Assembly: GCA_030647435.1 (NCBI GenBank)
Contig: JAUSJX010000048.1
Coordinates: forward strand, 1-64,000
DNA: 64,000 nucleotides
DNA from: Candidatus Rokuibacteriota bacterium
GTDB lineage: Bacteria > Methylomirabilota > Methylomirabilia > Rokubacteriales > CSP1-6
Direction: 5' to 3'
Under the pieces are notes generated by a model. The model searched no databases, was not told the origin of the DNA, and was given only the letters and a program-made list of their open reading frames with translations. Every line of letters begins with the position of its first letter. Within the stretch, counting starts at the first letter, position 1. The translations under genes were made by a program, and so were the position numbers. Of this stretch, positions 50,808 to 52,177 are shown one piece after another.

Positions 50808-51347
50808 ATGGCCAGGCTCCCCGACATTCTCGGCTCGCTCGACCCCGCCGCGCAGAAGGTGTACGAGCGGATCGCCACGAAGCGCGGAAAGATCCGCGGC
50901 CCCTACGTCCCGCTCATGCATCACCCGGCCCTCGCCGAGCGCGTCGCGGACCTCGGAGAGTACCTGCGCTTCGGCGCCACCCTGCCGGGAGATCTGCGAG
51001 AGCTCGCCATCCTCATCACCGCGCGCCACGTCGCCCAGCCGTTCGAGTGGGTCATGCACGCGCCCGTGGCGAAGAAGGAGGGTCTGCCCGACGACGTCAT
51101 CGAGCGGATCCGAGCGCGCGGCGACTTGGCCGGCCTGCCCGCGCGCTACGTGCGGGCCGCGCGGGTGGTGCAGCACGTCCTTCAGCGAGAGTCGGTGCCG
51201 TCCCCCCTCCAGGACGAGATCCAGCAGGAGGTGGGGGTGACCGGCCTCATCGAGCTGGTGGTCCTGGCAGGCTACTACCAGACCATCGCGGCAGTGCTCT
51301 TCGCCTTCGACGTCCCGCTCCCCGAGGGCACCCCCTCGCCCTTCTAG
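50808..51347 (+). CDS. Carboxymuconolactone decarboxylase-like protein without CxxC
   Basis: 179 residues of the CMD/AhpD alpha-helical family. LRELAILITARHVAQPFEW, VMHAPVAKKEGLPDDVIE and LIELVVLAGYYQTIAAVLFAFDV give the family outline. The redox CxxC of AhpD is absent; the corresponding position reads HVAQPFEW..H. It therefore resembles the non-thiol decarboxylase-like branch. Probably co-transcribed with the crotonase. Confidence 0.85.
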   Translation: MARLPDILGSLDPAAQKVYERIATKRGKIRGPYVPLMHHPALAERVADLGEYLRFGATLPGDLRELAILITARHVAQPFEWVMHAPVAKKEGLPDDVIERIRARGDLAGLPARYVRAARVVQHVLQRESVPSPLQDEIQQEVGVTGLIELVVLAGYYQTIAAVLFAFDVPLPEGTPSPF

Positions 51348-51372
51348 CGTGCCCAAGGCCTCGTGATTCACC

Positions 51373-51520
51373 GGGCGGGGCTGGGGGGGGTGCCCTCCTC
51401 GGACCACGCTGACTCGCGGGCGGGCTGCGTCCTCTCGTACGGGGCCACGAGACTCCGGTCTTACGCTTCGGCGGCGCGCAGAAGATACGGGTCCGAGGAG
51501 GGCACCCCCCAGCCCCGCCC
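51373..51520 (+). ncRNA. Structured hairpin element, copy A (possible RNA)
   Basis: Arms GGGCGGGGCTGG...CCTCCTC (51373-51400) and GAGGAGGGCACC...CCGCCC (51495-51520) are complementary except for two extra G in the left arm. They continue into GGACC/GGTCC at the ends of a 94-nt core (51401-51494). Within the core, TCTCGT (51433) pairs with ACGAGA (51447), and a C(TTCG)G tetraloop follows. Core strands CTGACTCGCGGG and GCAGAAGATACGGG are identical in copy B. No open frame. Class unknown. It could be a transcribed RNA or a single-stranded-DNA fold. Confidence 0.5.
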
Positions 51521-51591
51521 TCACCGCTACGTCAACGACCTGCCGGCACCCTCTCGTTCGGTTTCGCGGCCTAGGATTTCCCGCGCGGGGA

Positions 51592-51742
51592 GCCGACTGG
51601 GGGCGGGGGGCCTTCCCCGTGGACCCGTATCTTCTGCGCGTTGCCGAAGCCGGAGACAAGAGTCTCATGGCTCCATCGAGACGGCGCGACGCGCCCGCGA
51701 GTCAGCGTGGTCCACGGGGAAGGCCCCCCGCCCCCAGTCGGC
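51592..51742 (-). ncRNA. Structured hairpin element, copy B (inverted)
   Basis: Perfectly complementary 34-bp arms (51592-51625 and 51709-51742, including GGACC/GGTCC) enclose the core 51621-51713, which read on the minus strand aligns with copy A. First 22 and last 20 bases of the core are identical in the two copies. The middle differs but keeps the GTCTC/GAGAC helix and the TTCG loop. The outer arms are different in sequence from copy A yet perfectly paired. Confidence 0.5.
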
Positions 51743-51763
51743 GTGTCACGGATCGGTGGCGGG

Positions 51764-52177
51764 TCAGCAGCAGCCGCCCGCGATCGTCGAGCGCTGGACG
51801 AGCTCGACCCGCGTGTCGTCGGGTGCGCGCATGAAGGCGATGCGCCCGCCGTTCGGCACCTGGATGGGGCCTTCGAGAAGCTTTGCGCCCAGCCCCTCGA
51901 GCCGCCGGATATCGGACTCGATGTCGGTCGAGTCGAAGCCGAAGTGCTCGAGACCGAAGTGGGCAGAGGCGTCTCCCGCCCGGAGGGTCTCTCCCGTTCG
52001 CGGGCCCGAGATGTTCACCGCCATGCCGCCGTCGGCGCTCTGGCAGCGCACGAAGCGGTCGCCGAAGACGCGCGTCTCGTCGTTGACGATCTTGAAGTCG
52101 AACGCCCCGACGTACCACTCGGCGGTGCGTCGCGGGTCCGACGCCTTGAGATGGATGTGGTTGATGCGGTAGGGCAT
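51764..52177 (-). CDS. VOC (glyoxalase/bleomycin resistance) family protein
   Basis: 137 residues, single VOC unit pair. N-terminal INHIHLKASDPRRTAEWYVGAF has the first metal-ligand position (His). The second half begins FGLEHFGFDSTDIESDI and ends MRAPDDTRVELVQR with the Glu ligand. The tail GGCC is Cys-rich. Could be a lyase, dioxygenase or epimerase; not decidable. First gene of the minus-strand group downstream of the MaoC gene. Confidence 0.85.
   Translation of the reverse strand: MPYRINHIHLKASDPRRTAEWYVGAFDFKIVNDETRVFGDRFVRCQSADGGMAVNISGPRTGETLRAGDASAHFGLEHFGFDSTDIESDIRRLEGLGAKLLEGPIQVPNGGRIAFMRAPDDTRVELVQRSTIAGGCC

Follow-up and report, generated by a model that had tools for sequence, protein, structure and literature searches.

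The window analysed here, a stretch of 64,000 nucleotides of contig C48 within a 5.79-Mb Rokubacteria genome, carries two hairpins between two convergent genes. On the plus strand, a gene for a protein of 179 amino acids (positions 50808-51347), homologous in G001-G004, stops 25 nt before the first hairpin, and on the minus strand a VOC-like gene (51764-52177, 137 amino acids) stops 21 nt after the second. The first hairpin, copy A (51373-51520, type I), has its canonical reading on the plus strand and its favoured folded strand on the minus strand. Copy B (51592-51742, type II) is inverted, with the canonical reading on the minus and the favoured strand on the plus strand. We were able to reproduce the arm pairing and the core identities that had been claimed for this pair. 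The left arm of A (33 nt, 51373-51405) and its right arm (31 nt, 51490-51520) pair throughout apart from two surplus nucleotides in the G tract of the left one, and the two arms of B (34 nt each, 51592-51625 and 51709-51742) are 100% complementary. The conserved core of A, GACCACGCTGACTCGC...GCGCAGAAGATACGGGTC, spans 51402-51493 on the plus strand, and that of B 51622-51712 on the minus strand; taken from GGACC to GGTCC, the two cores are identical over 22 nt at the start (GGACCACGCTGACTCGCGGGCG) and 20 nt at the end (CGCGCAGAAGATACGGGTCC). Folded as single strands, A and B give z values of -7.1 to -11.6 on either strand, and none of 200 dinucleotide shuffles folded equally well. Nine inverted pairs, that of A and B among them, were aligned, and across these the spacer (51521-51591 in the window) shows little conservation.

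The original prediction saw in A and B hairpin elements of a class that it did not recognise, and expected further copies with covarying arms. Such copies exist. Using BLAST and model searches, we found about 13 in this genome, 23 and 3 in two congeners and none in a further two; since the same genome carries about 13 copies, A and B are not a chance similarity. The copies fall into three length classes, with the common borders GAMCACGC...CAGAAGMYACGGKTC around a variable interior. The covariance model R1, built from 30 copies, matches A at 51389-51506 and has hits in 24 of the 57 genomes of the taxonomic family; the 38 genomes searched from other families of the phylum gave no hit. Model R2, trained on short-class copies only, matches 35 of the 57 genomes, which represent 14 of 24 genera, with at most 25 copies in any one genome; the genomes are MAG assemblies and the E-values of the models are rough. 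R2 also picks up the long-class copies of the genome studied here, in support of a common descent of the length classes. In a pattern scan of named genomes, nearly all matches belong to Candidatus Rokubacteria / Rokuibacteriota. No real match to the element was obtained in Rfam at gathering or relaxed thresholds: chance matches to the mir-642 palindrome reached 30.9 bits where the cut-off is 90, and a weak match to atpB falls outside the element. No earlier description of Rokubacteria repeats or non-coding RNAs was found in the literature searched. Both hairpins are members of a large and apparently undescribed family of palindromic elements, small and dispersed, in Rokubacteria, which are bacteria of soil and groundwater. 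Viral contigs were rejected as carriers, the single match being spurious and lying within ordinary sequence.

The arms, 25-35 bp long, differ in nearly every copy and keep their complementarity, even where the stem sequence is altogether different, with 96.8% of the stem cells paired in helix 1 and 96.5% in a second analysis. Cells changed on both sides exceed those in all 500 shuffles, and the signal is lost on sliding. Because these controls leave the relatedness of the copies in, we compared orthologous copies at shared sites, where 67 compensated differences stand against 42 one-sided ones in 13 comparisons. The apical part of 40 nt is variable and its borders are invariant. A special open-reading-frame design was rejected, as the short class is no more open than its shuffles (3.12 vs 3.09) and the long class somewhat more (4.16 vs 3.27). 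At the same ligD site (L078 and L148 versus L153), one species has a core of a different subtype, with 57% identity, which suggests a core exchange between copies. Upstream of rpsU in G004, a long hairpin (L268) has a family-like outer flank, GCCGGCAATGCGGCGGG, around another and larger interior.

The two strands of the element are not equivalent. In the canonical reading, which for A is the plus strand, arm mismatches are A.C in 69 cells and G.T in 18 (p=3e-8, an optimistic value, as related copies are counted as independent), and the whole arms show the same asymmetry (119 vs 26). The A.C cells of the canonical strand are G.U wobbles on the opposite strand, and G.U intermediates are nearly absent on the plus reading. 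At unpaired core positions there is no such asymmetry in the long (0.059 vs 0.053) and short class (0.086 vs 0.093), whereas the mid class does show one (0.084 vs 0.029). The 2x2 site adjoining GACC is either Watson-Crick paired or, in 55 of the 55 remaining short and mid copies, which share a common ancestry and are not 55 independent events, reads GA/GA (tandem G.A) on the opposite strand; the long-class mismatch at this site is U.G on the same strand. Overall, folding is better on the opposite strand for 106 of the 117 copies. In the short class this better-pairing strand reads 5'-arm-GACCCGUAGCUUCUGGG...GCUAGCGUGGUC-arm-3', which for A is the minus strand of the window. The strand-biased wobbles together with the better folding indicate that one strand is kept foldable, presumably as a single-stranded nucleic acid, RNA and ssDNA being equally compatible with the sequences.

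The copies are not randomly placed. According to our own gene caller, the 92 classifiable intergenic copies comprise 46 in convergent, 43 in codirectional and 3 in divergent gaps, compared with 5/47/30 for other gaps. They follow stop codons by about 50 nt, with the core mostly 26-76 nt after the stop, and the gene on the 5' side of a copy runs in the canonical direction in 82 of 101 cases (82 vs 19). In the pairs of this genus the units always face each other, each adjoining its own gene; copies outside the genus are mostly single. Neighbouring genes are ordinary chromosomal genes, diverse and unrelated, among which we found neither an enriched gene family nor a related transposase. This genome has the pair at nuoN-HAD, and three congeners are without it; the locus is the one clean empty site, with no recognisable target duplication. 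A clear target duplication or terminal repeat was likewise not found for the element. For a possible MITE, which would be marked by terminal inverted repeats matching an autonomous transposon and by a target duplication, these observations come from the single clean empty site and the neighbouring genes. The window locus was rejected as a clean empty site, since the gap between its flanking genes (51348-51763) is a variable site that holds 2 to 9 kb of different genes in other congeneric species. Five head-to-tail tandem copies with a period of 136 bp and 95% identity lie between convergent genes in another contig (L143:907-1585, QHRU01000060.1).

Only the short class also occurs in frame within genes, namely in ligD (three species), folP (DHPS), comEC, a livG-livF fusion and others. 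Solved DHPS sequences from PDB relatives align on both sides of the folP insert and are without that segment. Six genera have this insert in intact form, with different arms; in others it has decayed, and G012, G050 and probably G040 have none. The ligD insert is absent in G039-G041. The pattern is one of insertion followed by long retention. The folP insert of G048 (L353) has the opposite orientation to that of five other genera (L354, L358, L359, L360 and L362) in the same codon region, which may reflect an independent insertion or a core inversion between the arms.

The closest known counterparts are the Rickettsia palindromic elements, which are about 100-150 nt long, dispersed, present as several subfamilies per genome, and found in intergenic regions as well as in frame in unrelated protein genes (PMC2229807, PMC10969869), the frequency of the latter having been termed unusual (PMC10969869). 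Like these, the Rokubacteria element consists of dispersed long stem-loop palindromes of about 100-150 nt and, in its short class, stands in frame in unrelated protein genes. It differs in its GC-rich, free-living host, its strong preference for positions shortly after stop codons, the inverted pairs in one genus and the invariant core with freely covarying arms. By kind, the element matches the published descriptions of the Rickettsia elements. YPAL, ERIC and NEMIS are imperfect palindromes of 100-170 nt, mostly intergenic, predicted to be mobile and to form long RNA stem-loops; they have a common consensus in which inverted repeats are conserved, and several show target duplications (PMC2229807), whereas the Rokubacteria element varies in its arms and is conserved at its centre. 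REP, BIME and REPIN sequences are extragenic palindromes with inverted pairs and tandem clusters (PMC2817692, PMC3116915), features that our element shares. Nevertheless, REP units measure 20-40 bp (PMC3733652), and we rejected a REP/RAYT assignment because the unit here is 100-160 nt long, with an apical conserved core and no terminal GTAG/CGTC tag. The RAYT/Y1 transposase (PF01797) was also rejected as the mobiliser: it occurs in 11 of the 57 genomes, shows no correlation with copy number and is absent from G004-G008, G042, G050 and G055, all of which carry copies. Integron attC sites preserve their structure though the stem sequence varies, and one strand is favoured, as in the Rokubacteria element. 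Their conserved core sites lie at the stem base and adjoin gene cassettes. The element has apical motifs, ordinary chromosomal neighbours and no cassettes, the only array seen being the 136-bp tandem duplication without genes, and we rejected an attC assignment.

The original prediction took the covarying stems as a sign of selection on structure. The favoured strand speaks for this, but covarying arms are by themselves no proof of a structured RNA, because correction templated by the hairpin can likewise keep the arms of a palindrome matched and because G.U intermediates are so scarce on the plus reading. Such template switching, acting on DNA only, would make the covariation a product of mutation and not of selection on folding. 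It agrees with the dominance of double changes, with the rarity of one-sided G.U states in the long class and with the clustering of compensated changes at neighbouring positions, seen in the orthologous copies. However, it predicts neither the strand bias of the wobbles nor the GA/GA motif on one strand nor the invariant core, and we regard it as quite improbable.

The tight spacing and orientation behind stop codons, the long and stable stems and the vertical retention with compensation could also indicate a cis-acting structured RNA at mRNA 3' ends, acting in stability, processing or termination and kept for regulating the upstream gene. In that case, however, the upstream mRNA would carry the strand with A.C and U.C mismatches and not the favoured one. 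A TTTT within 25 nt around the arm end was found, on either strand, in 1 of 117 copies; an intrinsic terminator was rejected on this ground, and 116 of the 117 are without a U-tract. Moreover, the host genes are diverse and unrelated, copies stand in frame within enzymes, and a congener with 94-97% identical DNA at the window locus is without the family, so that we consider this role rather unlikely. In most copies the favoured strand runs antisense to the nearest gene. Together with a variable interior between invariant borders, this would suit an antisense or trans-acting regulatory RNA transcribed from downstream, in which the variable 40 nt at the apex would confer specificity. Downstream of the copies, though, promoter-like sequences on the minus strand show no excess over shuffles, and the folding of the interior is barely distinguishable from that of shuffles; this explanation is very improbable.

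Given the in-frame copies inside genes, a hairpin mobile unit, one of the readings that had been proposed, is the better description, and it resembles the Rickettsia palindromic elements. The reading that we think likely is a dispersed palindromic element, specific to Rokubacteria and non-autonomous, that measures about 100-160 nt, spread to new sites and was then inherited vertically, with A and B as two of its copies. The element is probably mobile, with its folded single strand (RNA or ssDNA) under selection, a reading based on the Rickettsia elements as its closest known relatives in kind. The favoured strand would fold when single-stranded, as an RNA transcript or an ssDNA intermediate, into a long rod with the invariant internal-loop region at its tip, and a host or trans-acting factor may recognise this region for spread or maintenance. 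Copies would persist where they are least harmful, at 3' ends and in surface loops or linkers of proteins. On the other hand, a mobilising enzyme was not found among the ordinary neighbour genes or in the Y1 transposase, which does not track copy number. Several copies also look old and stably inherited, and a domesticated function fits as well. More tentatively, the family might be the substrate of a single-strand hairpin mobility or maintenance system, in which a dedicated factor recognises the invariant loop at the apex of one folded strand, either RNA or ssDNA, and copies the element behind stops and in frame, the strand-specific G.U and tandem G.A pairs being its trace.

In-frame palindromic elements have hitherto been treated as a peculiarity of Rickettsia, and a similar phenomenon is now seen in an unrelated, GC-rich and uncultured lineage. 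The Rokubacteria case offers dozens of copies, sites both with and without the element, and a DHPS insert that six genera have kept. Since strand-resolved covariation shows which strand folds, it gives a handle on how such elements move. A sister species, G003, carries a second, different palindromic family at the same 3'-intergenic sites (L232:1312-1486 and L267, about 290-460). Its units measure about 185 nt and have a covarying stem of their own; there are 17 copies in G000 and matches in 31 of the 57 genomes.
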